Part shown: in pieces, positions 10,983 through 57,823 of the stretch
Numbering within the stretch: the stretch's first letter is position 1
How the letters are laid out: the number at the start of each line of letters is the position of its first letter
Source of the DNA: Tistrella mobilis
GTDB lineage: Bacteria > Pseudomonadota > Alphaproteobacteria > Tistrellales > Tistrellaceae
Direction: 5' to 3'
Length of the DNA: 64,000 nucleotides
NCBI RefSeq assembly: GCF_039634785.1
Contig: NZ_JBBIAB010000002.1
Location: 186,001 to 250,000 of the forward strand
Translations under genes and position numbers: made by a program
The notes under the pieces: model-generated
What the model was told of the DNA's origin: nothing
Seen by the model: the letters and a program-made list of their open reading frames with translations, nothing else
The model's database searches: none

Positions 10983-12136
10983 GGCACGGCGTCTCCTCTG
11001 TCGGCGGTGTGGCGGGCAAGCACGCGGCCATAGACGGCGAGCATCGCGTCGGCCTGGCGGGCATGGGAAAAGCTGGCGGCCCGCGTGGTGGCCAGCAGGC
11101 CCATGCGGCCCAGGGCCGCCGGGTCGCGGACCAGCCCGTCGAGCGCGTCGCGCACCGCTTGCGGGTCGTGCGGGTCGACGAAACAGGCGCAGTCGTCCCA
11201 AAGCTCGCGATGGGTGGGGATGTCGGACAGCACCAGCGCCGCACCGGCGCCGGCCGCTTCCAGCACCGACAGACCGAAGGGTTCATACAGCGCCAGCGAG
11301 ACGAAGATCGCGGCCTCGGCCATGCGGGCGCGGAGGGCGCGATGGGGCAGGCTGCCCAGATGGGTGACATGGACGGGGCATGGGGCCCCCCTTCCCGACC
11401 CCGAACTTCCTGGCCCCTCCAGCGGGCCGGCGATCTCCACCGGCCAGAGCGCGCCCTCGGCGGCGGCATCCAGAACGGTCAGGTTCTTGGCCGGATCCCA
11501 CCAGCGGGCGGCGGCAAGCGCCACCTGCCGCTTCCGGCCCGCCATCACCGGCACGGCGGCATTGGGCACCACCGCCAGATCGGGCAGCGCGCCATAGATC
11601 GCGGTCATGGCGGCGGCGAAGGCGTGGCTGGGGCTGATCACCGCATCGGCCGCCGCCAGGCCCCGGGCGGTTGCCGCACCATGCCAGGCGAGGTTGAGCG
11701 GCGGGGTCTCGCCCCGCACCGCCTGCCACCAGGTCGACAGGCAGGAATGGGCGGCGGCGATGCGGGGAAGCTGCGCGGGCAGGAAGGGCAGCAGCGGCGG
11801 GTTGTTGACCTGCACCAGATCGGCGCCCGCGGCGGTGACCGCGGCGGCGAGCGCCCGGCCGCTGTCGGCCAGGGCCTCGGGCCCCTCGACCTGCCAGTCG
11901 AGCGGCCGGTCGATCCAGTCCAGGGCGACACCCGCCTCACAGGCCTCGTCGCGCTGCGCCTCGGACGGGCGGGGGCCGAGGCCGATCAGCAGGGGCTCCA
12001 CCACCTGCGGCGCCTCATCGGCCACCGCCAGCGCCCGGCCCTTCAGCGTGCCGGCCAGGTCGAGCGCATAGCGCCACACACCCCCCACCGCATCGGTCGT
12101 GATCACCAGGGTGAGCGGCGGGCTCAGCGTCCGCAT
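10979..12136 (-). CDS. Glycosyltransferase family 4
   Basis: A 385-residue GT-B protein of the GT4 type: an N-terminal GGVWRYALDLAGTLKGRAL segment, the mid-protein AHSCLSTWW and ADAVISPSHAFAAAM acceptor-side segments, and a C-terminal LALYEPFGLSVLEAAGAGAALVLSDIPTHRELW with the E-x7-E motif used to hold the donor phosphate and ribose. It overlaps the radical SAM gene upstream by 13 bases. The other three glycosyltransferases here are of a different subfamily, so the product is probably an oligosaccharide with at least two linkage types. Confidence 0.85.
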   Translation of the reverse strand: MRTLSPPLTLVITTDAVGGVWRYALDLAGTLKGRALAVADEAPQVVEPLLIGLGPRPSEAQRDEACEAGVALDWIDRPLDWQVEGPEALADSGRALAAAVTAAGADLVQVNNPPLLPFLPAQLPRIAAAHSCLSTWWQAVRGETPPLNLAWHGAATARGLAAADAVISPSHAFAAAMTAIYGALPDLAVVPNAAVPVMAGRKRQVALAAARWWDPAKNLTVLDAAAEGALWPVEIAGPLEGPGSSGSGRGAPCPVHVTHLGSLPHRALRARMAEAAIFVSLALYEPFGLSVLEAAGAGAALVLSDIPTHRELWDDCACFVDPHDPQAVRDALDGLVRDPAALGRMGLLATTRAASFSHARQADAMLAVYGRVLARHTADRGDAVP

Positions 12137-13422
12137 GCCGCCTCCAGCCGGTCGAGGGGCACCGGGCGTTCGTCCTGAATGTCGCTGAACCGGTCGAAGG
12201 CCGCCAGATAATGCTCATGCGCGCGTTCCCAGGCCCGGTCGTCGGGGCGGCCCCACAGCGCGTGGTATTGCGGCGAGGCGGGATAGGGATAAAGCGGCAC
12301 GGGATCATTGGCCCAGACGCCATGGGCCTGAACATGGGCGCGCCAGGCGGCGATGTCGTCGGGGTCGTCTTCCGGCGTGCCGATCAGATTGGCCTGGACG
12401 AAGGGCACATGGCGGCGGGCCTCGATCAGCAGCGCGGTCAGCTCGTCGGTGCCGATCCGGCAGCGCTTGGCCAGGGCGTCGCGGCCGGCGACGGTCAGGC
12501 TTTCGACGCCCGCCTCGATCGACACGCAGCCCGCCCGGCCCAGCAGGTCCAGCATGTCGGGCTTCCAGAGGTCGATGCGGGTCTGGATGCCGAAGCGCAG
12601 ATCGCGCGCGACCAGCGCCTCCAGCAGCGGCTTCTGCGGCAGGAAGATCTCGTCGATGAAATAGACGTAAGTGACGCCCTGGTCGATCAGCCGGTCGATT
12701 TCCGCCAGCACCAGATCCAGCCGGCGGCGGCGATAGCCGTCGCGGAAATCCAGCTTGGCGCAGAAGCTGCAGGCATAGGGGCAGCCGCGCGACGCCTCCA
12801 CCTCGGCCCCGGGGCCGTCGGGGGCGGCGTCGAAGCGGTGGTGGTGATGGTCGTGGCGCTGCAGCCATTCGGTCGGCCAGTGCAGCGCCGGCAGATCCTT
12901 GAAGCCGCCGATATGCGGGCCGCCATTGACCAGGGTGTCGCCGCCGGTCCGCCAGGCGGTGGCGGGCACGCGACGCATGGCCTCCAGCCCGGGCGCGGCG
13001 GCGAGGCTGACGATCACCTCTTCGCATTCGCCCATCACCACCGCATCGGCGGTCAGCTTGCGCAGCGTCGCCCCCGGGGTGGACGAGCCATGGGGCCCGA
13101 CCGCGATCCGGATACCGCCGCAGCCGCCCAGGCGGTTGAGGAAGGCGGCCGGCACCCGCAATTCGGGCGGCGCACAGCGCCAGAACAGATAGCTGGGCGC
13201 GGTGGTGACCACGGTCATGGCCGGTGCGAAGGCGGCGACGCGGGCCACCGCCGCGGCCTCGTCCAGCCCTTCGAGATGGGCGTCGATCAGCAGCACCTCG
13301 TGGCCGGCCTCGGTCAGCAGCGCGCGGGCATAGCCCAGTTCCAGCGGCAGATGCGGCTCGCGGCAGCCGAAATAGATGCTGCCGTCGAAGCTCCAGGGCG
13401 GGTTGACGAGTGCGATCTTCAT
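12124..13422 (-). CDS. B12-binding radical SAM protein of a glycan operon
   Basis: 432 residues. An N-terminal cobalamin-binding-like Rossmann domain (about 1-150; LPLELGYARALLTEAGHEVLLIDAHL) precedes a radical SAM domain with C214-x3-C218-x2-C221 in RGCPYACSFC. FIDEIFLPQKP and IEAGVESLT follow as in B12-dependent radical SAM enzymes. I associate this arrangement with TIGR04295 proteins found beside Rta-type methyltransferases. Such enzymes usually methylate or rearrange an unactivated carbon. A run HDHHHH at 190-195 just before the cluster motif is unusual. The ATG at 13422 overlaps the upstream stop as ATGA. Confidence 0.85.
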   Translation of the reverse strand: MKIALVNPPWSFDGSIYFGCREPHLPLELGYARALLTEAGHEVLLIDAHLEGLDEAAAVARVAAFAPAMTVVTTAPSYLFWRCAPPELRVPAAFLNRLGGCGGIRIAVGPHGSSTPGATLRKLTADAVVMGECEEVIVSLAAAPGLEAMRRVPATAWRTGGDTLVNGGPHIGGFKDLPALHWPTEWLQRHDHHHHRFDAAPDGPGAEVEASRGCPYACSFCAKLDFRDGYRRRRLDLVLAEIDRLIDQGVTYVYFIDEIFLPQKPLLEALVARDLRFGIQTRIDLWKPDMLDLLGRAGCVSIEAGVESLTVAGRDALAKRCRIGTDELTALLIEARRHVPFVQANLIGTPEDDPDDIAAWRAHVQAHGVWANDPVPLYPYPASPQYHALWGRPDDRAWERAHEHYLAAFDRFSDIQDERPVPLDRLEAACGR

Positions 13423-42719: not shown

Positions 42720-43981
42720 GTCGCACCCTTGCGGGTGCGTGGATTGAAACCGCGTCGAACAGTCTGTCATCCGTGACAAACTGGGTCGCACCCTTGCGGG
42801 TGCGTGGATTGAAACGGCGCCGTCGACCCGGGCCGTCAGCCCGTCGATGTCGCACCCTTGCGGGTGCGTGGATTGAAACAAGCATCTCTTCGGCAAGGAG
42901 CGCGTAGGCGCGCCCAGTCGCACCCTTGCGGGTGCGTGGATTGAAACAAGGGCGTCGGCCCCACCAAGTCGGTCGTAATCCGTCGCACCCTTGCGGGTGC
43001 GTGGATTGAAACAAGCCCGCGAGGCCCCATGTAAGCGATAGCCACGGTCGCACCCTTGCGGGTGCGTGGATTGAAACGACGATGTGGAGCTTGAAGTCCG
43101 TGAAGGATTCGGTCGCACCCTTGCGGGTGCGTGGATTGAAACATTGCTTTGCCCGGCGACCACGACGATAAGATAAGTCGCACCCTTGCGGGTGCGTGGA
43201 TTGAAACTCGTGTTCCAGTTGCCGCCGCCGCGCAGGCCAACGTCGCACCCTTGCGGGTGCGTGGATTGAAACCAGCAGGTCGGTCTTGCCGCTGAGGCGC
43301 TTGCTGTCGCACCCTTGCGGGTGCGTGGATTGAAACCACGACGACATGAGCCGGTGGTGGAAGCAGACCTGTCGCACCCTTGCGGGTGCGTGGATTGAAA
43401 CGCGGCGGCGACCAGAAGGGCCGGTTTGTCGCGGTCGCACCCTTGCGGGTGCGTGGATTGAAACTGGATCAGCTTGAAAAGGTCGGTGCGCCATCGCGGT
43501 CGCACCCTTGCGGGTGCGTGGATTGAAACTCCACGCCGTCATGCTGCGTGATGAGCCGGGCGGTCGCACCCTTGCGGGTGCGTGGATTGAAACCAGATCG
43601 TGTAGGCACGGGCGCCGGTAGTGGGATAGTCGCACCCTTGCGGGTGCGTGGATTGAAACTGAGCATCTTGCTCCCCTTGGTTTATGGGTGCCGTCGCACC
43701 CTTGCGGGCGCGTGGATTGAAACTCGTGTGCCTCGCCATTCTGGGTCTGGGAGGCGCGTCGCACCCTTGCGGGTGCGTGGATTGAAACGCGTTCAACTCG
43801 CGGCGATCTGCCCCGCTAAGTTGTCGCACCCTTGCGGGTGCGTGGATTGAAACTGGCCGCGGCTGATGGGTCGCTGGGCGAGCAGTGTCGCACCCTTGCG
43901 GGTGCGTGGATTGAAACATATGTCGCGCCATCCCGAAGTGGGGCGGTCTCGTCGCACCCTTGCGGGTGCGTGGATTGAAAC
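42720..43981 (+). CRISPR. Type I-C-like CRISPR array, 20 repeats and 19 spacers
   Basis: A 31-nt repeat beginning GTCGCACCCTTGCGGGTGCG and ending TGGATTGAAAC, with stem CGCACCC/GGGTGCG. Repeats start at 42720, 42785, 42849, 42917, 42982, 43047, 43112, 43177, 43242, 43306, 43371, 43434, 43499, 43563, 43629, 43693, 43758, 43823, 43887 and 43951. One repeat (43693) has a T-to-C change in the stem; the rest are identical. Spacers are 32-37 nt and all different. The form is that processed by Cas5c in type I-C. No cas gene is adjacent on either side. Confidence 0.97.
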
Positions 43982-43982
43982 C

Positions 43983-44004
43983 GCACCCCCGGCAACGGGG
44001 GTGC
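43983..44004 (+). terminator. Hairpin directly after the I-C-like array
   Basis: GCACCCCCG, loop GCAA, CGGGGGTGC: a perfect 9-bp stem with a GNRA-type loop, starting two bases after the last repeat and followed by CTTCGCTTCTC. It probably ends the pre-crRNA. Confidence 0.6.
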
Positions 44005-44071
44005 CTTCGCTTCTCTCGCCCCGTCGTCTGATGCACAATCAAGCCCAACTCATTGTTCCTGAAAGAAAATG

Positions 44072-44232
44072 CCGTCATCCCGGCGAAGGCCGGGATCCAG
44101 GTTCGTCCCCCCACAAAGAACGCTGAACGCCCTGGTCCGGCGGTGATGGCCGACATGGTGGTCCGCACGCCCGGTCGCCTGTCCATTCCCGTGGAAGCCT
44201 ACCTGGATCCCGGCCTTCGCCGGGATGACGGT
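44072..44232. repeat. 162-bp palindrome-ended element, copy B
   Basis: Same ends and centre as 27936-28097 with few changes. The downstream flank up to about 44340 (GTGGGTGGCGAGGTTTGGATCGG and onwards) is also shared with 28110-28200, so the duplicated segment is longer than the element. Confidence 0.75.
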
Positions 44233-44351
44233 AGAAGGGGTGTGCAGTGGGTGGCGAGGTTTGGATCGGACATAGAGGCCAGGCTTTTGGGGGTGGTTTT
44301 GCGGGGGCATCCCGGGTCGCGGGGGTATGTGGGCCGCGGCCGACTGCGGAT

Positions 44352-44496
44352 AACCCAGTGGAATTATTATGCTATTGATTTTATCGTGGAAAAAGAAATA
44401 ACGGACCGAGACGCATAACCGCTTATGTAAATGGCTTGAACCCGACGGAAACGGTGCTTTTCGGAGGGCCCTTGACAAGGGCTTGGAAGGAGGGGA
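44352..44496 (+). promoter_or_regulatory. CRISPR leader 2 (second repeat family)
   Basis: Homologous to the leaders at 27509 and 46446: AGTGGAA..TTATGCTATTGAT, an imperfect palindrome CGCATAACCGCTTATGTA at 44412-44429, GACGGAAA, and TTGACAAGGGCTTGGAAGGA before the first repeat. The palindrome ends 67 bases before the repeat, as in leader 1. Confidence 0.75.
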
Positions 44497-44739
44497 GTTT
44501 AAAGGCGTGACCAATCGCTCCGGTCATGGAAACTAAATCGGCGTCTTTGTCGGCGCCCCGGAGGTCGGTTTAAAGGCGTGACCAATCGCTCCGGTCATGG
44601 AAACCGGTCGTCATAGTAGTATACTCGGGCTTTTCAGTTTGAAGGCGTGACCAATCGCTCCGGTCATGGAAACTCGTGCCCCACCACTTGTCTACACGGT
44701 GGGTTTGAAGGCGTGACCAATCGCTCCGGTCATGGAAAC
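44497..44739 (+). CRISPR. Short CRISPR array 2, 37-nt repeat, 4 repeats and 3 spacers
   Basis: Repeats at 44497-44533, 44568-44604, 44637-44673 and 44703-44739; spacers 34, 32 and 29 nt. The repeats are of the same family as array 1 but read GGCGTGACC instead of GGCATGACC, and the first two read GTTTAAAGG. The A-to-G change turns a stem pair into G-U, so the hairpin survives. The last repeat is also the start of a 353-bp tandem unit. Confidence 0.88.
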
Positions 44740-45445
44740 CGCGCAACCCGGTCCCCCCGGGTTGACGGTCGATTCAGCCCTCTGACCATCCCCGCGCCGC
44801 GCCGTTGATGTCCGGCGCTGTCGCTGCCAGTCCCGGCACATCCTCCCCACCGTCATCCCGGCGAAGGCCGGGATCCAGGTTCGTTCCCCCACAAAGAACG
44901 CTGAACGCCCTGGTCCGGTGGTGATGGCCGACATGGTGGTCCGCACGCCCGGTCGCCTGTCCATTCCCGTGGACGCCTACCTGGATCCCGGCCTTCGCCG
45001 GGATGACGGTAGAGGGGGTGTGCTGTGGGTGGCGAGGTTTGGATCGGACATAGAGGCCGGAAGGCCTGGCCATTTGCTCCGGTCATGGAAACCGCGCAAC
45101 CCGGTCTCCCCGGGTTGTCGGTCGATTCAGCCCTCTGACCATCCCCGCGCCGCGCCGTTGATGTCCGGCGCTGTCGCTGCCAGTCCCGGCACACCCTCCC
45201 CACCGTCATCCCGGCGAAGGCCGGGATCCAGGTTCGTCCCCCCACAAAGACCGCGGAACGTCCTGGTCCGGCGGTGATGGCCGACATGGTGGTCCGCACG
45301 CCCGGTCGCGTGTCCATTCCCGTGGACGCCTACCTGGATCCCGGCCTTCGCCGGGATGACGGTAGAGGGGGTGTGCAGTGGGTGGCGAGGTTTGGATCGG
45401 ACATAGAGGTTTGAGGTCATGACCATTTGCTCCGGTCATGGAAAC
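44703..45445. repeat. 353-bp tandem units bounded by CRISPR repeats
   Basis: Units start at 44703, 45056 and 45409, exactly 353 bp apart. Each consists of a 37-nt CRISPR repeat (that at 45056 degenerate, that at 45409 with one change in the stem region), the CAACCCGG/CCGGGTTG hairpin, about 80 bases, a 162-bp palindromic element (44849-45010, 45202-45363), and about 46 bases. The third unit decays after about 150 bases. Confidence 0.8.
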
Positions 45446-45720
45446 CCTGCAACCCGGCCTCCCCGGGTTGCCGGCCGCTTCAGCCCTCTGGCCATCCGCG
45501 CGCCGCGCCGTTGATGTCCGGCGCTGGCGCTGCCAGTCCCGGCACATCCTCCTTACCGTCATCGCGGCGAAAGGCCATCGTCAGCGCCCATGCCGGGTGG
45601 TGGTGTGCGGCCGGCCGGCTGCGATGCCGCCAGCTTCGACCGGCTGCATGAGCGGTTCCGGCGGGTGGCCGCGGAGCATGGGATCGGGTGGGAGGTGGGG
45701 GGCCTGTAAGGGCCGGGTGG
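45446..45720. other. Decayed third unit and unidentified 3' fragment
   Basis: The first half continues the third 353-bp unit, with a damaged palindromic end at 45556. From about 45600 the sequence changes to ordinary coding-like DNA. One plus frame reads ASFDRLHERFRRVAAEHGIG and ends at a TAA near 45709. It could be the 3' end of a gene cut off by the repeat insertion, and slightly recalls the end of the PurU N-terminal domain. No start is present. Confidence 0.3.
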
Positions 45721-46023
45721 TCAAGGCAGCAGATAGCCGGCTTCCTTCTGGTGCCGGAAAGCCAGCACATACACGGCCGTCTCGCCCGGAACATGACGGT
45801 AGAGCGCCGCATAGCCGGAGTGACCGAACGGGATCAGCAATTCCCGCAGATCCGAGCCGTCGGAGAACGGGCGACCGATATCCGGGTGAGAAGCCAGCGA
45901 CACCAGGTATCGATCTATGGTTTGGCCTGCCCGTCGCGCAGCATCGGGCGCCTTGGCCGCCAGAAAGGCCTGGCAGCGCTGGATGCCGCGAACGGCATTC
46001 CTGGTGACGATTACCTGTGGCAC
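45721..46023 (-). CDS. RelE/ParE-family toxin
   Basis: 100 residues from a GTG at 46023. The ParE fold is suggested by VIVTRNAVRGIQRCQAFLAAKAPDAARRAGQTIDRYLVSLASHPDIGRPF, then LRELLIPFGHSGYAALYRHVPGETAVYVLAFRHQKEAGY, with the C-terminal basic strand typical of RelE/ParE. ParE toxins block gyrase and RelE toxins cut mRNA; which applies is not visible. It overlaps its antitoxin by 13 bases. Confidence 0.8.
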   Translation of the reverse strand: MPQVIVTRNAVRGIQRCQAFLAAKAPDAARRAGQTIDRYLVSLASHPDIGRPFSDGSDLRELLIPFGHSGYAALYRHVPGETAVYVLAFRHQKEAGYLLP

Positions 46024-46283
46024 CGCGGCGCCGGCGTCTCGCCCTCAGTGCCCCAGCTGTTCAGCCAATCGCTGACTTCCTGGCCGGTCAGGTGCAGGCT
46101 GTCCGTCTGATACGCGGCCCAGGAGGCTTCGGCCTCCCGTCGGAAGTCGTCGCGGGCTTCCTCGCGTTCGACATATTGCCGGATCGCTTCAACCGTGACG
46201 GCATCGACGGAGCGACGGCGGCGGCCTGCTACCTCGTGGAGGCGCCGTTCGAGGTCGTCATCAATCTTGAGAGAGGTCGACAT
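46011..46283 (-). CDS. Ribbon-helix-helix antitoxin
   Basis: 90 residues. The N-terminus STSLKIDDDLERRLHEVAGRRRRSVDAVTVEAIRQYVEREE is a ribbon-helix-helix DNA-binding domain; the remainder (DDFRREAEASWAAYQ..HLTGQEVSDWLNSWG) should wrap the toxin. The ATG at 46283 has GGAAGGTGAG in front. It precedes and overlaps the toxin gene, the normal order. The pair lies between repeat-rich CRISPR segments, where such modules may stabilise the region. Confidence 0.82.
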   Translation of the reverse strand: MSTSLKIDDDLERRLHEVAGRRRRSVDAVTVEAIRQYVEREEARDDFRREAEASWAAYQTDSLHLTGQEVSDWLNSWGTEGETPAPRCHR

Positions 46284-46445
46284 GACACTCACCTTCCGGA
46301 ACGATCCCTTGATAATTTAGGCCCCTGTGGGACGGGAATCCAGCCTCTTCGCCTGCTGCCGGCGGTCCCGGCGCCGTCGCTGAACGGGCGGATGCCTTTC
46401 GGCTGTGCCGCGGCGGATGGGGCGCGTGAACGGATGGAAATCGCC

Positions 46446-46585
46446 TAGTGGAAATGCTAAGATATTGATATTATGATTGAAAACGCCGACAAGAATTGGA
46501 GTGCATAACCCGTTATGCAAATGGGTACGACCCGACGGAAACCGTGCTTTCGGAGGTCTCTTGACAAGGGTTTGGAAGGAGGGGA
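46446..46585 (+). promoter_or_regulatory. CRISPR leader 3 (second repeat family)
   Basis: Homologous to leaders 1 and 2: AGTGGAAATGCTAAGATATT, perfect palindrome TGCATAACCCGTTATGCA at 46502-46519 (ending 66 bases before the first repeat), GACGGAAA, and TTGACAAGGGTTTGGAAGGA. The gap 46284-46445 before it holds no gene. Confidence 0.75.
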
Positions 46586-46760
46586 GTTTGAAGGCATGAC
46601 CATTTGCTCCGGTCATGGAAACCAGAGAATAACCAGATGGTTTTCTGCTTCTGTTTGAAGGCATGACCATTTGCTCCGGTCATGGAAACTTCATCCTGGT
46701 CTTCATGCTTAACCCTCATTAAGGTTTGAAGGCATGACCATTTGCTCCGGTCATGGAAAC
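46586..46760 (+). CRISPR. Short CRISPR array 3, 37-nt repeat, 3 repeats and 2 spacers
   Basis: Repeats at 46586-46622, 46653-46689 and 46724-46760; spacers 30 and 34 nt. The repeat differs from array 1 only in the hairpin loop (ATTTGCTCC instead of AATCGCTCC), the stem and ATGGAAAC handle being unchanged. The degenerate repeats at 45056 and 45409 have this loop form, so they derive from an array 3-like source. Confidence 0.88.
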
Positions 46761-47109
46761 CGCGCAACCCGGTCCCCCCGGGTTGACGGTCGATTCAGCC
46801 CTCTGACCATCCCCGCGCCGCGCCGTTGATGTCCGGCGCTGTCGCTGCCAGTCCCGGCACATCCTCCCCACCGTCATCCCGGCGAAGGCCGGGATCCAGG
46901 TTCGTTCCCCCACAAAGAACGCTGAACGCCCTGGTCCGGTGGTGATGGCCGACATGGTGGTCCGCACGCCCGGTCGCCTGTCCATTCCCGTGGACGCCTA
47001 CCTGGATCCCGGCCTTCGCCGGGATGACGGTAGAGGGGGTGTGCTGTGGGTGGCGAGGTTTGGATCGGACATAGAGGCCGGAAGGCCTGGCCATTTGCTC
47101 CGGTCATGG
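46724..47109. repeat. Second copy of the CRISPR-repeat-bounded 353-bp unit
   Basis: From the last repeat of array 3 to a degenerate repeat at 47077, essentially identical to 44703-45090, including hairpin and palindromic element (46870-47031). The period is again 353 bp. The copy ends inside the degenerate repeat (CATGGAAGG), 32 bases before the end of the GNAT gene. Confidence 0.8.
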
Positions 47110-48149: not shown

Positions 48150-48243
48150 CGGCGTCGTGATCCTGGGGCTGCTGCAGGGAAGGGCCGATCGTGAGTATAT
48201 GATCGCCACGCCCTGCCAACCACGAGATGGATACCGGGATGTG

Positions 48244-51200
48244 ATGGCCGTTGACCTGGACTGGTCCGCCCTGGCCGCTGCGGCGGCCAGCCTCGACGAG
48301 CGCCTGTCGGGCGGTTTCGCGCCCGTCGATGCCCCCGACGCGGCGGCGCGGGCCGCGGCGGCGCTGGATCTTTGGGTCGAGGCGGCGACCGCCGGCGACC
48401 GGGCGCGGTTCGACCGCATGCTGACCCGCCGGGGGCTGACGCTTGAGGCGGTGCTGCCGCTGCTGGGACCGGTGCGTTTGCAAGCGGGGGGCGCGCTGCC
48501 CGGCTGGACCCGCCATGCCCGGCCGCTGCTGGCGGCGCTGATCGATGGCCGGGATGGCGGCCGGCCCTGCCCGGCGGCGGCCTGGGACGAGATCCCCTTC
48601 GCCGGGCTGCTCTGGCCGGCGGTGGTGGAGGCGCGCCGGGCCCGGGGCGCGCCGCCCGTGGGGCTGATCACCGAGACGGCGCTGGCGGCGCTGGACATCG
48701 CGCTGCTGCGGGCCTTGAGCGAGGTGACCGGACAGAGCCTGTTCGAGAGTTTCGATTTCTACCGCCGCGCCGGCGGCGGGCCGGCAGAAGAGGCACCGGA
48801 AGGGTGCGGGCTGGTGGCGGGTTTTGCCGCCGCCCTGCGCGCGGGGCCGCTGCTGAACCTGATCGCCGCCCGGCCGGTGATGCTGCGCCTGGCGGCGACG
48901 ATCCGCGGCCAGTGGATCGCCGCGACCGGCGATTTCCTGGCGCGGCTGGCGGCGGATCGGGGCCGGCTCGACCGGCTGATCGGCCGCGGCGCCGGGCGGG
49001 TGGCCGCGATCGCGACCGAGCTGTCGGACCCGCATGAGGGCGGGCGGCGGGTGATGGTGCTGACCTTCGAAAACGGCGCCCGCCTGGTGTGGAAGCCGCG
49101 ATCGCTGGCCGCCGAGGCCGCCTGGCATGATCTGGTGCAATGGTGTGCGGCCAATGGCGCGCCGGTGGCGCTTGGGGCGGCCCCGGTGCTGGATTGCGGC
49201 AGCCATGGCTGGATGGGCTTCGTGCCCCAGGCGCCTGCCTTGACCGCGGCCGGAGCGCCGGATTTCTGGCGCCGGGCGGGCGGGCTGCTGGCGGTGATGC
49301 ATGTGTTGCGCGGCAGCGACCTGCATCACGAGAATGTTCACATCGTCGATGGCGTGCCGGTGCCGGTGGATCTGGAGGCGATGCTCCAGCCCGATCTGGC
49401 CCTGGTGCCGGCGGCCGCGGCCGTGCTCTGCGCCGACCAGGCGGCCCGGCGGCGGCTGGAAAGCTCGGTGCTGGCGGTGGGGCTGTTGCCGCGCGAACAG
49501 CGGCTGGCCGGGCGGCCGGTGCGGATGGGCGCGCTGGCGCCGGTGGGCGAAGAGACCGTGCGGCTGCCCGGGTGGACGGCGGTCAACCGCGACGCCATGG
49601 CCTTCGAGGTGCAGACGGTCACCCGGCCGACCGCCGGCATCCCGATCACCATCGACGGCCGGCCGGCGATGCCGGGGGCCGGGGCGGCGGATCTGGTGGC
49701 GGGCTATCGCGCGATGATCGGCTTTCTGGCCGCACATCGCGGGGCGCTGCTGGCGGCAGAGGGGCCGCTTGCCGGTTTCGCCGCCGCCCGCATCCGCCAT
49801 GTGCTGCGCCCGACCAGCTATTACGAGCAGTTGCGCCAGGCGGCGCGCCATCCCGGTGCCCAGACCGACGGCATCGCCTGGAGCCGCCATTTCGAACGCC
49901 CGATCCGGACGGCCCGCTGGGATCTGGGCGATGGACCGGGCGAGGATGCCGGCTGGGAGTTGCTCGCCCCTGAACGCGCGGCGCTGGCCCGCGACGACGT
50001 GCCGGTCTTCACCGGCACCGGCGCCACCGACGGCTGTTTCGCCGAGGGCAGAGAGGTGGCAAAGGGCCTGCTGGAGCCGGCGGTGCTGCCACGCCTGGCG
50101 GCCCGGCTGGATCGGATCTGCGCCGAGCTGGACATGCATACCGGCCTGATCCGCCAGGCGATGACCGGGGCCGATCTGCCGGCGCTGCCGCAGCCCAGGC
50201 CCTGGGCGGTGCCGGCCGGCGGTTTCGACCCGGCGGCGGCCCGGCGGATGGTCGATGCCATCGCGGCCCGGCTGGCGGAGGATGCCATCCGCACCGATGG
50301 GGCGGCGGCCTGGATCGGCACCCGGATCTCTGCCGATGGCCAGGCGCTGGAGCCGGCCGTTCTGGGTGATGATCTTTACGACGGCCGCATCGGCATCGCC
50401 CTGTTCCTGGCGGGGGCGGCGGCGACGGATGAGGCGGGCCGCAAGATGCCGGGCGGGCTGGCGCTGAAGGCACTGGCGCTGGAAGCCCTGGCACCGCTCC
50501 GCCACCGGCTGGCGGCGGGGCTGCCCGAAGCGGCCGACGGCCTGCAGGGCATCGGCGGTTTCGACGGCTGGGGCGGGGTGGTCTATGGGCTGACCCGCAT
50601 CGCCGGCCTGCTGGACCGGCCGGATCTGCTGGAGGATGCCCGCCGCGCGGCGGCCCGGATCACGCCCCAGGCCATCGCCGCCGATCGGGTGTTCGACCTG
50701 ATCGGCGGTGCGGCCGGGGCGATCTGCGGGCTGCTGGCGCTTTATCGGGCGACCGGTGACGATGCGGTGCTGGCCCGGGCGGTCGCCTGCGGCCGCCATA
50801 TCCCGGCCGATGGCCGCGCGGGCTGGCCGGGGGTGGCGGGCCGCGCGCTTGCCGGCCAGTCCCATGGTGCGGCCGGCATCGTCCAGGCCCTGGCGGCGCT
50901 GGCCGCGGCGACGGGGGAGGCGGGCTTCGCCGAAACCGCGCGTCAGGGGCTCGCTTTCGAAAACCGGCTGTTCGATGCCGGGCGGGGCAACTGGCCCGAT
51001 CTGCGCCGCCCGGACCGGATCACCTTTCCGGTGCAATGGTGCCATGGCGCCACCGGCATCGGCTTCGGGCGGCTTGCGGCACTGGCCATTCTGGACAATG
51101 GGGTTCTGGATGACGGCGCGGCGGCGCGGGATCTGGACCATGCCATCGCCTGCAGCTGCGCCACGGCCGACGGCGGGCGCGACAATCTGTGCTGCGGCCA

Positions 51201-51444
51201 GGCCGGGCGGCTGTCGCTGCTGATCCAGGCGGCGCGGGCGCGGGGGGATGGCGGGCTGATGCAGCTGGCCGACCGGCGGCTGGCGGCCTGGCTGGCGCGC
51301 GCCGCCACGCCCGACGGCTTCATCCTGGCCGGCGCCGGCCGGCATCTTCGCCCCGGGCTGATGCAGGGGCTGGCGGGGGTGGGGCAGGTGCTGCTGGAAC
51401 GGCTGTCGCCGCAGGTGATCCGCCCGGTTCTGGCCCTGGGGTGA
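48244..51444 (+). CDS. Class II lanthipeptide synthetase LanM with Cys-Cys-Cys zinc site
   Basis: 1066 residues. The N-terminal kinase-like dehydratase domain phosphorylates and eliminates Ser/Thr of a precursor: K284 in LVWKPRSL, then D359, H361 and N364 in GSDLHHENVHIVDG and DLEAML. The C-terminal LanC-like cyclase (about 700-1066) joins Cys to the dehydro residues. Its zinc ligands are C933 in WCHGATGIG and C983-C984 in NLCCGQAGR, where most LanCs have Cys-His. Cys-Cys-Cys sites are known from ProcM-type enzymes that modify many substrates. The ATG at 48244 is chosen; ATG 48199 is possible. No LanT transporter is in the window. Confidence 0.9.
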   Translation: MAVDLDWSALAAAAASLDERLSGGFAPVDAPDAAARAAAALDLWVEAATAGDRARFDRMLTRRGLTLEAVLPLLGPVRLQAGGALPGWTRHARPLLAALIDGRDGGRPCPAAAWDEIPFAGLLWPAVVEARRARGAPPVGLITETALAALDIALLRALSEVTGQSLFESFDFYRRAGGGPAEEAPEGCGLVAGFAAALRAGPLLNLIAARPVMLRLAATIRGQWIAATGDFLARLAADRGRLDRLIGRGAGRVAAIATELSDPHEGGRRVMVLTFENGARLVWKPRSLAAEAAWHDLVQWCAANGAPVALGAAPVLDCGSHGWMGFVPQAPALTAAGAPDFWRRAGGLLAVMHVLRGSDLHHENVHIVDGVPVPVDLEAMLQPDLALVPAAAAVLCADQAARRRLESSVLAVGLLPREQRLAGRPVRMGALAPVGEETVRLPGWTAVNRDAMAFEVQTVTRPTAGIPITIDGRPAMPGAGAADLVAGYRAMIGFLAAHRGALLAAEGPLAGFAAARIRHVLRPTSYYEQLRQAARHPGAQTDGIAWSRHFERPIRTARWDLGDGPGEDAGWELLAPERAALARDDVPVFTGTGATDGCFAEGREVAKGLLEPAVLPRLAARLDRICAELDMHTGLIRQAMTGADLPALPQPRPWAVPAGGFDPAAARRMVDAIAARLAEDAIRTDGAAAWIGTRISADGQALEPAVLGDDLYDGRIGIALFLAGAAATDEAGRKMPGGLALKALALEALAPLRHRLAAGLPEAADGLQGIGGFDGWGGVVYGLTRIAGLLDRPDLLEDARRAAARITPQAIAADRVFDLIGGAAGAICGLLALYRATGDDAVLARAVACGRHIPADGRAGWPGVAGRALAGQSHGAAGIVQALAALAAATGEAGFAETARQGLAFENRLFDAGRGNWPDLRRPDRITFPVQWCHGATGIGFGRLAALAILDNGVLDDGAAARDLDHAIACSCATADGGRDNLCCGQAGRLSLLIQAARARGDGGLMQLADRRLAAWLARAATPDGFILAGAGRHLRPGLMQGLAGVGQVLLERLSPQVIRPVLALG

Positions 51445-51568: not shown

Positions 51569-51766
51569 ATGTCGATGACGGGCATGAACCAGACGACCGG
51601 GTCCGCGGCACTCGCCCTGTGGCGGCAGACCGGCGGCGCCGGTTGCGTTGCGGCGGCGCCGGGCACGGGCGGCGATGCGCCGATGGCGGCAGCGAGTGCC
51701 ACGGCCTACATCTCCGGCTGCCTGGGCGAGGATATGGCGCCGTCGGTGTCCGGCCGCCGCGGCTGA
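51569..51766 (+). CDS. Candidate lanthipeptide precursor peptide 1
   Basis: 65 residues, 124 bases downstream of LanM on the same strand, with GGGAGATGATCC before the ATG. The leader-like part MNQTTGSAALALWRQTGG matches MQTTTDMMAAWRQTGG of the second candidate at 52925. The core is rich in Ser, Thr, Ala and Gly with two Cys (C26, C51). SATAYISGC recalls one repeat unit of the larger precursor. Its 3' end overlaps the converging GNAT gene by 61 bases. A double-Gly cleavage after WRQTGG would leave a 42-residue core. Confidence 0.72.
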   Translation: MSMTGMNQTTGSAALALWRQTGGAGCVAAAPGTGGDAPMAAASATAYISGCLGEDMAPSVSGRRG

Positions 51767-52737
51767 TCGTCCGGGCGGCGGTGATCCTGTGGGCCGGGGC
51801 GGAGCGACGCCCCGGCCGCCACATGTCGTTCCCAGAGATGATGTTCGCCGGCCAATGTCATGCCGGCGCGCTCCATCGCGCGGCGCGAGGCGGCGTTGGT
51901 GACGTCGGCACAGGCCACGACGTCCAGCCCGCGCGGCGCAGAGACCCGTTCGGCCATCAGCCGGCACATGGCATCGATGGCGCCGCTTCGCCAATGGGCG
52001 CGGGCCAGACAGGCCTCGATCACCAGGATGCCGCCCGCCATCTGCTGGAACAGAATATGGCCGGCGATCTCGCCGCCCCGCCGGGCGACGATCAGCCCGC
52101 TTCCCGGCTGTGACAGACGGCCCTGAACCACATCTGCGGTCCAGTCGGCAACCGAGCCGCGCGCGCCGAGGGTATGGTTGTGGATGGCGGCCACCCGGTC
52201 CGCCACCGCCCGGTCCGGCGGCCGTGCCGGATCGTCGAACAGCGCAAGCCCATAGCCGGCGCCGAGCGCCTGGTCCGCCAGAACGAATTCCCCCGGCCGG
52301 GGCGGGCCGGCCGGGCGGCGGTATTCGCAAAGCCCGGGCATGCGGGTGAAGCCCCGGGCGGCGAGCCGCGCGGCCGGGGTCGGCTGGTGGGTCTGCTCGG
52401 TGATCCGGTAGAGCCGCGCCACCGGGGCGATCCGGTCTTCCCGGTCCAGAAACGCCTCAAGACAGGCTTCCGCCGCCGCAAGCCCGCCCCCGGCGGTCAG
52501 GATCTGCGCCGAGACGACGATGCAGCCGTCATGGCGCGGCGCCCGCGCCAGCGTCACCGCCGCCGCGGGGGCCGCGGGGGCACCCTGCAGCCAGGCCTCG
52601 GCACCCTGCCGGTCCAGAAACAGCGCCCGAAGATCGGTGGTCGCCAGATAGTCCCGCACATCCGGGGCCGCCCTGGCCATCAGGAAAGCGGCGAAGGCCG
52701 GCAGCGTGGTGTCGTCGACGCGGGTCAGGGCCGTCAT
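51706..52737 (-). CDS. GNAT-family acetyltransferase-like protein, paralogue 2 of a RiPP cluster
   Basis: 343 residues from the ATG at 52737, with CTGGAGGATC upstream. The GNAT core is LSQPGSGLIVARRGGEIAGHILFQ, then CLARAHWRSGAIDAMCRLMAERV and ACADVTNAASRRAMERAGMTLAGEHHLWERH. The N-terminal half (TLPAFAAFLMARAAPDVRDYLAT...) aligns with paralogue 1 at 47142. It lies between the two precursor candidates, on the other strand. N-terminal or Lys acetylation of the peptide, or self-resistance by acetylation, are possible roles. The last 30 residues are Pro/Arg-rich and encoded antisense to precursor 1. Confidence 0.72.
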   Translation of the reverse strand: MTALTRVDDTTLPAFAAFLMARAAPDVRDYLATTDLRALFLDRQGAEAWLQGAPAAPAAAVTLARAPRHDGCIVVSAQILTAGGGLAAAEACLEAFLDREDRIAPVARLYRITEQTHQPTPAARLAARGFTRMPGLCEYRRPAGPPRPGEFVLADQALGAGYGLALFDDPARPPDRAVADRVAAIHNHTLGARGSVADWTADVVQGRLSQPGSGLIVARRGGEIAGHILFQQMAGGILVIEACLARAHWRSGAIDAMCRLMAERVSAPRGLDVVACADVTNAASRRAMERAGMTLAGEHHLWERHVAAGASLRPGPQDHRRPDDQPRRPDTDGAISSPRQPEM

Positions 52738-52924
52738 CCCGTGATCCTCCAGAGGGGTGAGGGGCCCAGCATGACGACCCGGCCGGCGGCGGGCCAGAGG
52801 CTGGTAAACCGTCGTCGCCCGGCAGCCACGTGGCCGCTGCATCCGGCCCGGCCCCGATCGAAGATGCGCGCTGCGCAGGCGCGCAGATTTCTGCGCCCGC
52901 GCCCCTTTGTCGAACCCGGGAGTC

Positions 52925-53302
52925 ATGATGATGCAGACCACCACCGACATGATGGCCGCCTGGCGCCAGACCGGCGGCGTTCCGTCCGCCGCCGGCCGCC
53001 GGATCGGCGCAACCTGCATTGATGTCGATGCATCGGTTTCCGCCGCGGCAGTGACCTTCCGCATGCCCGGCTGCGCGGCGGAGAATTACATCGATGCCGA
53101 TGCATCTGTCTCGGCGTCGTCGTCCAGCTATCGCGGCCCGCTGTGCTGGAACATCGATGCCGATGCATCTGTTTCTGCCGCGGCAGTGACCTTCCGCGTG
53201 CCCGGCTGCGTGGCGGAGGAGTACATCGATGTCGATGCATCTGTTTCCGCCGCCGCGATCAGCTGGCATGGCGGCGTGTGCCGCCCCGCGGGCGCTGCCT
53301 GA
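52925..53302 (+). CDS. Candidate multi-core lanthipeptide precursor with four repeats
   Basis: 125 residues (start among three ATGs at 52925-52933; a GGGAG lies just before). The leader MMMQTTTDMMAAWRQTGG shares WRQTGG with the smaller candidate. After VPSAAGRRIGATC come four units starting ID(V/A)DASVSA at residues 32, 56, 77 and 101, each ending with one Cys (C50, C74, C95, C119) and rich in Ser/Thr. Units 1 and 3 are nearly identical in DNA, 135 bases apart, showing recent duplication of a two-unit block. Each unit could be dehydrated and cyclised by the LanM to give several ring peptides. The D-x-D-x-S pattern might instead bind a metal ion. Confidence 0.75.
   Translation: MMMQTTTDMMAAWRQTGGVPSAAGRRIGATCIDVDASVSAAAVTFRMPGCAAENYIDADASVSASSSSYRGPLCWNIDADASVSAAAVTFRVPGCVAEEYIDVDASVSAAAISWHGGVCRPAGAA
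53018..53299 (+). repeat. Four coding repeats in the precursor gene
   Basis: Units at 53018-53089, 53090-53152, 53153-53224 and 53225-53299 (72, 63, 72 and 75 bases). Each opens with ATCGATG(T/C)CGATGCATC or TGATG variant. Units 1 and 3 share the run GCCGCGGCAGTGACCTTCCG, at a period of 135 bases. Confidence 0.85.
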
Positions 53303-53420
53303 CCGGATCGCCCGCCGGCCCGACGACGGCGCCGGCCGTCTCGCGGGCCGCTGCCCCGATTGCGCCGTCACCGCCCGCCTGCCAGGATCGGGATCCACCC
53401 CATCCGGAGGGCCGGCATCC

Positions 53421-53591
53421 ATGACCGAGGCGCGCAAGGCGAAGCTGAAGGCACTGCGTGAGACCATCCAGGCCGCCATTGCCGAGGGCGACGGTGTCGG
53501 CGAAGACGAGATGGATCGCCTGCTGGATGCCGAACAGGAGCGGCTGCGCAAGGCGCCGGCACGAACGGCAGCAGGTCTGGCAGGCAGGTAG
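53421..53591 (+). pseudogene. ParD-like C-terminal fragment
   Basis: 56 codons, with CGGAGGG upstream of the ATG. The segment KLKALRETIQAAIAEG almost repeats RLKALRDTIQAAIAEG of the ParD protein encoded 260 bases downstream. The N-terminal DNA-binding domain is missing, so it looks like a truncated duplicate, although it could still be translated and bind ParE. It may be a decoy antitoxin or only debris. Confidence 0.5.
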
Positions 53592-53682
53592 GCGCAAGGG
53601 GCTTGCGGTTCGATGCTATTAATTGTGCAAAAACTGACATCCTGTTAGGATTGAAGGCCAATCCTCCGGAGGGTCAGCTCCC

Positions 53683-53934
53683 ATGAACGTGTCGATCGGT
53701 GCGCGCTGGGAAAGTTTCGTCGACAGCGTGGTCGAGGAAGGCCGCTATGCCTCGGCCAGTGAGGTGGTGCGCGAAGGCCTGCGCCTGGTGGAAGAGCGCG
53801 AGGCCAGGCTGAAGGCGTTGCGCGACACCATTCAGGCGGCGATCGCCGAAGGCGGAGAGAACAGTGCTGATGATGCCCGCCGGGCAATCGCTGCGGCGGT
53901 GGCGGAGATCGGATCCGATCAGGGCTCACGCTGA
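53683..53934 (+). CDS. parD: ParD-family antitoxin
   Basis: 83 residues. MNVSIGARWESFVDSVVEEGRYASASEVVREGLRLVEEREARLKAL is the ParD/CopG ribbon-helix-helix domain with the typical GRYASASEVVREGLRLLEERE core. The acidic C-terminus neutralises ParE. The ATG at 53683 follows GGAGGGTCAG. The gene ends directly before the toxin start (TGA, then GTG). An AT-rich stretch at 53615-53650 (TGCTATTAATTGTGCAAAAAC) is probably the promoter and operator. Confidence 0.88.
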   Translation: MNVSIGARWESFVDSVVEEGRYASASEVVREGLRLVEEREARLKALRDTIQAAIAEGGENSADDARRAIAAAVAEIGSDQGSR

Positions 53935-54249
53935 GTGCCGCGCCTGATTCTGTTGACCCCAGCCGTGCGGGAATTAGCGGCGATCGCGGCTTATGTGATG
54001 CAGCGAAGCCAGGATGCGGCGATGGCCGAAGCCTTCGCCGCTGATCTGGTGATGAAGTGCGAGCATCTGGCCAGCCTGCCCGGCCAGATGGGCCGGCCCC
54101 GGCCCGAGCTGGCCGCAGGCTTGCGCAGCTTTGTCCATCGCGGCTATGTCATCTTCTTCCGCTATATCGACGACCGGTTCGAGGTGGTGACCGTGCTGGA
54201 AGGCCATCGCGACATCGACGGGCATTTTTTTGAAGAGCTGCCGCTCTGA
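53935..54249 (+). CDS. parE: ParE/RelE-family toxin
   Basis: 104 residues from a GTG that immediately follows the parD stop. It has LILLTPAVRELAAIAAYVMQRSQDAAMAEAFAADL, then LASLPGQMGRPRPELAAGLRSFVHRGYVIFFRYIDDRFEVVTVLEGHRDID, the strand order of ParE toxins, which poison DNA gyrase. Co-transcribed with parD. It is a different lineage from the toxin at 45721. Confidence 0.87.
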   Translation: MPRLILLTPAVRELAAIAAYVMQRSQDAAMAEAFAADLVMKCEHLASLPGQMGRPRPELAAGLRSFVHRGYVIFFRYIDDRFEVVTVLEGHRDIDGHFFEELPL

Positions 54250-56095: not shown

Positions 56096-56114
56096 GCTAT
56101 TGATAATCATTCTC
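56096..56114. promoter_or_regulatory. Fur box upstream of fecI
   Basis: GCTATTGATAATCATTCTC matches 16 of 19 positions of the classic Fur consensus GATAATGATAATCATTATC. It lies 55 bases before the sigma factor ATG, so iron repression of the FecI/FecR pair is expected. Confidence 0.8.
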
Positions 56115-56168
56115 AAAAGAGGCACAGTCGCTGACGGCGAGAGCCCCCATGATTACCGGAGCGGCGGC

Positions 56169-56681
56169 ATGACGCTCGATCAACTGCTCGTCGACAGCCA
56201 GACGGAACTGAGGCGCTATCTGAGACAGCGCTTCGGATGCGACATGCTGGCGGCAGAGGCCGTGCAGGACGCCTGCGTCCGGCTGTCGGGCACGGCCCGG
56301 CCGGCGATCGGGACGGTGCGTCATCCGCGTGCCTATATCTTCCGGGTCGCGACCAATATCGCACTCGACATCCTGCGTCGCGAAACGCGCGAACGCCGCC
56401 GGTTCGTTGCGCTGGACGATGCGCCCGAGGCGGTGGAGGTGCCGGTGCCGTCGGTGGAACGCAGCATCGAGCAGCGTGAACGCCTGGCCCTGCTGCGCGG
56501 TGCCATCGACGAGCTGCCGCCACGCTGTCGCGAGGTTTTCGTGCTCCACAAGCTCGACGGGCTGAGCCATACCGATGTCGCCGACCGGCTGGGGATCAGC
56601 CGCAACATGGTGGAGAAGCACGTCATCCGCGCCATGCGCCATTTCCGGGACCGTCTGGACGCCGCCGGCCATGAGAGCTGA
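56169..56681 (+). CDS. FecI-type ECF sigma factor
   Basis: 170 residues. Region 2: ELRRYLRQRFGCDMLAAEAVQDACVRLSG and HPRAYIFRVATNIALDILRRETRERRRF. Region 4: LPPRCREVFVLHKLDGLSHTDVADRLGISRNMVEKHVIRAMRHFRDRL. Both are typical FecI signatures. FecI sigma factors switch on TonB-dependent siderophore or haem receptors when released by FecR. The ATG at 56169 has GGAG upstream. A Fur box precedes it. Confidence 0.88.
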   Translation: MTLDQLLVDSQTELRRYLRQRFGCDMLAAEAVQDACVRLSGTARPAIGTVRHPRAYIFRVATNIALDILRRETRERRRFVALDDAPEAVEVPVPSVERSIEQRERLALLRGAIDELPPRCREVFVLHKLDGLSHTDVADRLGISRNMVEKHVIRAMRHFRDRLDAAGHES

Positions 56682-56803
56682 GACGGCGGCGGCCGCCCGC
56701 CGGTTGCTTGCGGTGATCCGGACCTTCCGCTAGAACTTGGAGCCGCCGGACCCGCGCCCCCCTTGCCGGGTCCGCCACCAGTAAGGGCGGCGACGACGAG
56801 GGC

Positions 56804-57823
56804 ATGGCCGGCGAGCATTCCTCTCCCCAAGGCGACGGACAAGACGGCCGGCCGGCTCCTGTCGACGAGGAGCAGGGCTGGGAACTCTATGCCCGCGCCA
56901 CCTCGGGCGATGACCCCGACGGCCGCGCAGCCCGTGCCTGGGCCGATTGGCGGCGCCTGTCTCCCGCTCACGAAACCATCGCCCGCCGCATCGAAAGCGT
57001 GTGGTCGGACGCAGACGCCCTGGCGGTGGAGGTGGCCGACCGGCCGGCAGAGGGGCGGCAGCGGCGTGCTGCCGTGGTGCTCAAGGCGCTGGCCGCATCG
57101 GTGCTGGCGGCGGCGGTGATCGGCTATGGCGCGCTCGCCACCCGCGGCCATTGGCAGGGGGCGATCCGGAGCCTGACCCATGATGTCGCAACCGGCGTGG
57201 GCGAGCGGCGCGAGCTGCTGCTGGCCGATGGCAGCCGCATGATGCTGGATGCGGCCTCGGCCGTGGATCTTGCCATGGCGGGCGAGCGGCGCGATGTGAT
57301 CCTGGCCCGTGGCCGGCTGCTGGTGGACGTGGCCCGCGATCCCGACCGTCCCTTCACCGTGACCGCCGGCACGGTTCGCGCCATGGTGCTGGGTACCAGT
57401 TTCACGGTGGAGCGCCGGCCCAGCGGCACGGTCTCGGTCGCCGTGCTTCGTGGCCGGGTACAGGTGGCGGTTCCTCACGAGCGGCCTGAAGACCCCGGCC
57501 GCTACCCGCTGGGGCCGGGGGACCGGCTGACCTTCGGGCATGGCGACGTGGCGCTGGACCGGATCGATCCCGACCGGATCGCAGCCTGGACCCGCGGCGT
57601 GCTGCTGATCGACGGCCGCCGGCTGGATGATGCGGTGGCGATGATCGATGCCTATCGCGGCGGCGCCAGTTTCATCCCCGAGGCCGATCTGGCCGGCATG
57701 CGGGTGAGCGCCAGCCTCAATCTCGACGGCGGCGGCGATGCCGCACTCGACCGCCTGGCGGCGGCGCTGGGCCTGGTGGCACACCACCTGCCGGGCGGGC
57801 CGGTGGTGATTACGCGTCGATAA
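56804..57823 (+). CDS. FecR-family anti-sigma/signal transducer
   Basis: 339 residues. The N-terminal DUF4880-like anti-sigma part (GWELYARATSGDDPDGRAARAWADWRRLSPAHETIARRIESVW) is followed by one membrane helix (VLKALAASVLAAAVIGYGALA, about 92-112) and the periplasmic FecR domain (ELLLADGSRMMLDAASAVDLAMAGERRDVILARGRLLVDVARDPDRPFTV), then a C-terminal STN-like segment. No TonB-dependent receptor follows, which is unusual for this family; the target must lie elsewhere. Confidence 0.87.
   Translation: MAGEHSSPQGDGQDGRPAPVDEEQGWELYARATSGDDPDGRAARAWADWRRLSPAHETIARRIESVWSDADALAVEVADRPAEGRQRRAAVVLKALAASVLAAAVIGYGALATRGHWQGAIRSLTHDVATGVGERRELLLADGSRMMLDAASAVDLAMAGERRDVILARGRLLVDVARDPDRPFTVTAGTVRAMVLGTSFTVERRPSGTVSVAVLRGRVQVAVPHERPEDPGRYPLGPGDRLTFGHGDVALDRIDPDRIAAWTRGVLLIDGRRLDDAVAMIDAYRGGASFIPEADLAGMRVSASLNLDGGGDAALDRLAAALGLVAHHLPGGPVVITRR

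Follow-up and report, generated by a model that had tools for sequence, protein, structure and literature searches.

Genes at the locus

The window analysed here, a stretch of 64,000 nucleotides from Tistrella mobilis, carries a gene for a class II lanthionine synthetase (LanM), two small open reading frames (ORFs), A1 and A2, and, between the two, a gene for a GNAT-family acyltransferase (Table 1). An earlier note on this DNA, whose translations and coordinates proved correct, had described the two ORFs beside a complete LanM with their common MxQTT...WRQTGG start, which we confirm for both, but it had overlooked the GNAT gene on the opposite strand, which belongs to the system. This gene is convergent with those of LanM and A1, and its 3' end overlaps A1.

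Table 1. Features of the LanM locus, in positions of the window.
Feature	Position	Strand	Evidence
LanM, class II lanthionine synthetase	48157..51444	+	TIGR03897, DUF4135, LANC_like, LicM2 alignment, WCHG and CCG motifs
A1, small precursor-like ORF with one weak unit	51569..51766 (alternative start 51584)	+	Shared leader, precursor profile
GNAT-family acyltransferase, two GNAT-like domains in the model	51706..52737	-	PF13302 (E 1.5e-9); AlphaFold and Foldseek
A2, putative four-unit precursor	52925..53302	+	Best reading from ATG to stop, 125 aa; shared leader; two-unit homologue in G001
A2 leader, 18 aa, MMMQTTTDMMAAWRQTGG	52925..52978	+	Same amino acids in G001; the DNA differs by a single synonymous change
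A2 unit 1, IDVDASVSAAAVTFRMPGCAAENY	53018..53089	+	
A2 unit 2, IDADASVSASSSSYRGPLCWN	53090..53152	+	
A2 unit 3, IDADASVSAAAVTFRVPGCVAEEY	53153..53224	+	
A2 unit 4 and C-terminal tail, IDVDASVSAAAISWHGGVCRPAGAA	53225..53299	+	

The LanM reaches 604 bits against TIGR03897 (cut-off 304) and has both DUF4135 and LANC_like, that is, the dehydratase and the LanC-like cyclase domains; LicM2, for which a structure has been solved, can be aligned with it over query residues 197-984, and the WCHG and CCG motifs are present. Comparison with relatives suggests that its true start lies near 48244. In a tree of 19 rows, from which G233 was left out and for which the tool warned of long branches and uneven composition, 11 LanMs from three alphaproteobacterial genera lie on one side of a branch with a support of 100/100. 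The positions that we take to be catalytic and zinc-binding do not vary across the alignment of these 11 proteins. The CCG zinc motif is likewise invariant within the group, but it also occurs in most non-family LanMs examined and is thus no defining mark of it; the motif has been tied to ProcM-like, substrate-tolerant LanMs in the accessible parts of PMC10783134 and PMC10027976. The window genome has a second LanM (G000 C35, L012:12000-14816), also found in G149 and G001, and this second LanM of the genus falls outside the 11-LanM group in the same tree.

The AlphaFold model of the GNAT, the only one of its family that was modelled, has a pLDDT of 85.1 and a pTM of 0.77, and its best Foldseek matches are tandem GNATs, among them VipF and the tandem GNAT of the clavulanate pathway, with PamZ lower down.

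Other features of the window were recorded alongside. A ParD/ParE pair lies at 53683-54249 (region 53400-54246), and the end of the ORF upstream of it (53425-53591) resembles a ParD C-terminus (KAKLKALRETIQAAIAEG) and is perhaps a duplicated remnant. An ECF sigma factor and FecR-like anti-sigma pair is found at 56100-57820, downstream of a GH3 glycosidase. The region 43539-47100 is rich in repeats, both short regular CRISPR-like ones (FQSTHPQGCD in translation) and dispersed ones of the TWIPAFAGMT type, of which the sister species G001 has very many similar copies.

A1, A2 and their counterparts in the closest genomes

A2 carries four ID(V/A)DASVSA...C units, each with Ser/Thr and one Cys, just as the earlier note had read them, together with a fifth Cys directly ahead of unit 1 that it did not mention. 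Its claim that units 1 and 3 are almost identical in DNA also stands, with 60 of 66 nucleotides the same, and so does its remark on the short leader, for which we count 18 aa in A2 and, depending on the start, either 18 or 23 in A1. The case for A1 is weaker than the note had it: this ORF holds a single weak unit, is not preceded by a ribosome-binding-like sequence in a simple test, and matches the precursor profile described below with an E of 1.2e-6, but is itself part of that profile. Neither A1 nor A2 matched a Pfam or NCBIfam family, and neither has any Lys after GG.

The order to which the window genome belongs was represented by three genomes. In G001, a sister species whose LanM is 92% identical to that of the window, the A2 homologue has the identical 18-aa leader, a different linker and two units instead of four, and A1 is absent, with a block of about 370 bp that holds A1 replaced by about 30 bp. 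The inference that the core is being amplified is borne out by this difference in unit number and by near-identical units inside genes, the latter extending to 47 of 48 nucleotides within one gene at L139. The leader DNA of A2 is nearly unchanged although the DNA upstream has strongly diverged: its 18 codons differ by one synonymous and no non-synonymous change, and the 48 codons of units 3-4 by four synonymous and two non-synonymous changes. Synonymous sites, by which the earlier note had proposed to judge coding, thus point in the direction it expected, with little data and small numbers. Between the same two genomes, dN/dS is 0.21 for LanM and 0.38 for the GNAT gene. Neither this LanM nor a convincing precursor (best E 0.13) is present in G149, which is labelled as the same species as the window genome and keeps the neighbouring glycosidase gene, so that the locus is accessory; as far as DNA search shows, the ECF/FecR pair is missing there together with the LanM block.

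The precursor family in other genera

A search for the LanM family in 387 genomes of the class returned nine above the cut-off, three of them from the window genus. Among the others is that of G366, 44% identical to the LanM of the window. A GNAT lies directly upstream of it, and the locus has two small ORFs, whose leaders end in ...MANWKINGG and ...LSAWQASGG and are followed by units such as IDQEMSAAASTQGASC and IDPELNAAAATNSRTHC. A strict leader search at the other LanM loci had missed these precursors, which were revealed by listing the ORFs of the locus. The LanM frame of G366 (L040:7952-11138) is broken toward its N-terminal part, be it real or an assembly error, and its precursors and GNAT read intact.

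With a profile of three LanMs, 317 genomes of the order of G366 gave 10 matches, namely seven in genus g196, which we guess to be Thalassospira, two in genus g373 and one weaker. Each of the seven g196 loci has one to seven precursor-type ORFs. Neither of the g373 genomes showed a precursor beside LanM, but a precursor profile detected 10 in G648 and five in G649 away from it, with two or more, and at most six, DDGLxA...[ST]...C units; since none is adjacent, their pairing with LanM rests on the leader type and the LanM group. Precursors are scattered in G648 and G649, one is a stray in G657, and in the window genome they occur at the window locus only. A further ORF, at L011 (6065-6349, minus strand), was dropped from the list, as its WxxxGG was judged to be due to chance.

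In total, 42 candidate precursors were collected from 11 genomes, with leaders of 17-26 residues ending in WxxxGG; one of them (L104:12562) has no unit of the search pattern and was counted among the 42 but omitted from the 41-row alignment. The earlier note had made its reading depend on conservation in related LanM loci, and the leader with its repeated, ring-competent units indeed recurs with ten further LanMs of the same group, adjacent to them or elsewhere in the genome. The exact string WRQTGG that it had suggested for the search would, however, miss the family, whose common leader is [ML]xxWxx[ST]GG-A. This also bears on the idea that the leader derives from a fragment of a cysteine synthase gene. 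Cysteine synthases do carry QTTGPE(I/L)WRQTGG, which is near the start of A1, and 14 of 23 QTT..WRQTGG stretches in a scan of contigs were of that kind, but the other leaders of the family share only [ML]xxWxx[ST]GG, so that the likeness is limited to A1, A2 and G001. We judged it to be a coincidence and regard such an origin as hardly credible. The cysteine synthases with (Q/A)TT(G/A)PE(I/L)WRQTGG or a close form lie at L058, L059, L061, L062, L064, L065, L067, L068, L070-L073, L075 and L077.

At all 11 family loci, no more than about 0.4 kb separates LanM from a GNAT of one family, which in two cases (L105 and L106) was found by profile search. Nine of the loci have the two genes in divergent orientation; in those of the window genus, two in number, the GNAT gene follows LanM on the other strand. 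Further copies stand divergently beside precursors away from LanM, at L137 and L139 of G648 and at L099, L102, L103 and L104 of g196. Applied to 12 further loci with a LanM or LanM-like gene, the profile of this GNAT found a single weak relative (E 5e-9), which sits with a long-leader precursor in G307. That locus (L045:8623-8988 and 9093-13407) comprises a LanM over two frames, a long-leader precursor-like ORF and a distant GNAT, and has a selidamide-type look.

By the counts in sampled genomes, the combination of precursor, LanM and GNAT is rare. The precursor profile was found in at least three of the 387 genomes of the class (G000, G001 and G366), a count that may be too low as at most 12 candidates per genome were scored, and a profile of the 11 LanMs matched four of 398 genomes sampled from the phylum at E 1e-80. 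For two of these four (G731 and G1014), the stretches fetched around LanM held no family precursor or GNAT. A scan of genome contigs with the single window LanM protein confirmed nothing, and searches of plasmids gave no DNA copy and no match for A2 or the GNAT, with three weak LanM matches on cyanobacterial plasmids.

Properties of leaders and units

We compared the family loci with control DNA, which consisted of other LanM loci (including both g373 LanM loci), unrelated loci and the first 40 kb of the window. ORFs with ATG...WxxxGG followed by at least one unit numbered 25 in the 173,017 bases of nine family loci, against none in 469,210 bases of control DNA and two when the family loci were block-shuffled ten times; when at least two units were required, 21 remained in the family loci, with none in either the control DNA or the shuffles. 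Since WxxxGG was demanded by the search, Trp and GG are invariant by construction, but features beyond this demand are shared as well, namely Met or Leu three residues before Trp (41/42), Ser or Thr before GG (35/42) and Ala after it (39/42). At least two Cys follow GG in 38 of the 42 precursors. By the unit pattern, the number of units per precursor ranges from one to seven, with at least two in 35, at least three in 20 and fewer than two in seven.

The spacing within the units fits ring formation, for which a Ser or Thr five to six residues ahead of Cys is needed if each unit is to close one thioether ring. Among 138 Cys in the 42 precursors, 132 were usable, and 103 of these have Ser/Thr at -5 or -6, compared with a mean of 38.0 and a maximum of 52 in 1000 shuffles; the remaining 29 do not. 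Counted over -7 to -5 and by genus, the proportions are 8/9, 58/64 and 47/59. Counting back from 72 of the 75 Cys in the first 26 precursors, with no unit pattern imposed, Ser/Thr occupies -6 in 58% and -5 in 29% (16% overall), while Ala stands at -9 in 74% and an acidic residue at -15 in 54%. Lys is nearly absent after GG, making up 0, 0.9 and 0.5% of the residues there in the three genera, and is missing altogether in 27 of the 42 precursors. One and the same ring sequence, (M/L)LTRS(P/V)QTCYSI, is shared by precursors from five genomes of g196 (L103, L104, L099, L100 and L102), two of which have it several times, and one product is thus perhaps conserved across species.

Could the small ORFs be non-coding, or chance ORFs in high-GC DNA? 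The lack of database matches for A1 and A2 and the absence of A1 from the sister species would allow it. Among 41 precursors compared with NCBIfam and Pfam no family fell below E 0.05, the sole RiPP row being one member at 0.059. A ribosome-binding-like sequence before 33 of the 42 starts is only weak evidence, because such a sequence was favoured when the start codons were picked. What refutes this explanation in practice for A2, and leaves it very improbable overall, is the conservation of leader and units over three genera, the absence of pattern matches from control DNA, and the preservation of the A2 leader beside diverged upstream DNA.

Proposed mechanism

At the level of sequence, the synthetase, the leader family, the repeated ring-competent units, the association with a GNAT and the change in unit number between sister species are established. 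The lanthipeptide interpretation of the earlier note is supported by these observations, and we consider it probable, in the absence of expression or mass data, that A2 and its relatives form a class II lanthipeptide system with multi-core precursors.

In the scheme that we propose, the short leader [ML]xxWxx[ST]GG would be recognised by LanM, which would dehydrate the Ser/Thr five to six residues before Cys in each unit and close one (methyl)lanthionine ring. That this LanM forms the rings is inferred rather than demonstrated, but we have little doubt of it. The product of A2 would be a chain of four single rings with acidic and Ala-rich linkers between them. The leader might then be removed by a double-glycine (C39-type) peptidase, which is not encoded nearby; removal at GG is an inference as well, if a very likely one. 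No transporter or protease was seen in the cluster, and two C39-peptidase ABC exporters far from it (L159:5919-8330 and L160:6486-8633, on G000 C21 and C30), each beside a second ABC protein, are candidates for GG processing in trans.

Thereafter the linkers would probably be cut, yielding several ring peptides per precursor, although the release of units is inferred only and, in our estimate, could go either way. Alternatively, the chain of A2 stays uncut and forms a single long lanthipeptide in which four rings follow one another, the repeats lying inside a single core, which differs from the main reading only in the release step. That no protease was seen in the cluster agrees with an uncut chain, and a unit number varying from one to seven would be tolerable for a beads-on-a-string product. 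It is harder to reconcile with linkers that are conserved while the rings vary, most clearly in g373 with 46 D[DE]GL motifs per 61 Cys, and with different rings that stand side by side within one gene. The uncut chain is therefore a possibility that we take seriously but somewhat doubt, and cutting at the linkers is favoured because these are more conserved than the rings. As a conjecture by analogy, each linker could also help to hold LanM, since the pair that an acidic residue and Leu or Met form in it is reminiscent of the (E/D)(L/M) motif that PMC7268733, in the part available to us, cites for leaders of class II.

In the last step of the proposed scheme, the GNAT would acylate the product, most likely at the new N-terminus because Lys is nearly absent. 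The target of the enzyme has not been shown, and N-acylation remains an inference with even chances. The GNAT may instead protect the producer by acetylating the product, or act on something else. Its genes are found in divergent orientation next to single precursors and not merely next to LanM, an arrangement that would also suit immunity genes specific to one toxin, and the Foldseek matches include PamZ, which we take to be a self-resistance enzyme. Moreover, GNAT genes occur near 14% of class II clusters, and other roles are suspected for these genes in the accessible portion of PMC12715929. The known GNATs of lanthipeptide clusters, however, acylate the peptide, as does the tandem GNAT NpuN at Lys1 of a LanM product (PMC13060382, seen in part). 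A role outside tailoring thus appears unlikely to us but not negligible; with the Lys acceptor mostly missing, either the N-terminus or self-protection becomes likelier.

Returning to cutting and N-acylation as the preferred reading, we tentatively speculate on a combinatorial system, which is compatible with the data but which we would not expect to hold as it stands. One LanM would act in trans on scattered precursors to give strings of single-ring peptides, the linkers (DDGLxA and relatives) would be cut, and each peptide would be capped by a tandem GNAT from its own cassette. A single genome would in this way give rise to a whole set of small monocyclic peptides with acylated N-termini, and tandem duplication of units would enlarge this library.

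Novelty and significance

Although lanthipeptides rank among the well-studied ribosomal natural products, multi-core precursors are listed as unreported for them in the accessible part of PMC13343206 (July 2026), where the next sentence speaks of multiple precursor or core peptides in one cluster and cites cyanobacteria. In the literature on multi-core or repeat-core lanthipeptides, Tistrella or Thalassospira we found no report of this precursor family, most subscription papers being outside the scope of the search. It is possible that such clusters entered the totals of earlier surveys but were not described there. A survey by Zhang et al. (2014, ACS Chem Biol 9:2686) reportedly covers diverse precursors of such LanMs, and some of these peptides might already be listed there. 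As far as the sections available to us go, PMC13101482 reports RiPP-rich Tistrella MAGs and also 13 lanthipeptide clusters that have candidate peptides, and PMC10304266 describes a family of RiPP clusters restricted to Thalassospira.

The family would supply natural multi-core lanthipeptide substrates, along one chain of which LanM would have to act several times, and a leader of about 18 residues would be handy for engineering. In one genus it would amount to a scattered multi-core library, and the action of a tandem GNAT on a peptide almost without lysine becomes a testable question.

Comparison with known systems

The system resembles that of the prochlorosins and ProcM in that a LanM with CCG would serve several different precursors, which in g373 are likewise scattered over the genome, though they are multi-core there. 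It differs in the leader, which belongs to the Nif11 family in prochlorosins (PMC10783134, in the part accessible) and here has 17-26 aa, ends in WxxxGG and mostly precedes several units; no Nif11-type family was among the Pfam or NCBIfam matches of 41 precursors up to E 0.1. What it has in common with the selidamides and nostolysamides is a cluster that combines LanM and precursor with a tandem GNAT, as described in the available text of PMC13060382. The GNATs of those systems acylate side chains of Lys or ornithine, unlike what can be expected for the short-leadered precursors with several units found here: A1, A2 and the 27 of 42 precursors overall that are devoid of Lys after GG do not offer the selidamide-type Lys acceptor, a comparison that does not cover a route through peptide arginase and ornithine. 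Multi-core RiPP precursors of the cyanobactin type also have several core-like units and conserved spacers behind one leader, but are handled by a different enzyme class. Measured against these systems, the family meets the criterion for class II lanthipeptide precursors, with a GG-ended leader and Ser/Thr and Cys in the core, as well as that for multi-core precursors, in which a single leader is followed by several modifiable units, four in the case of A2.
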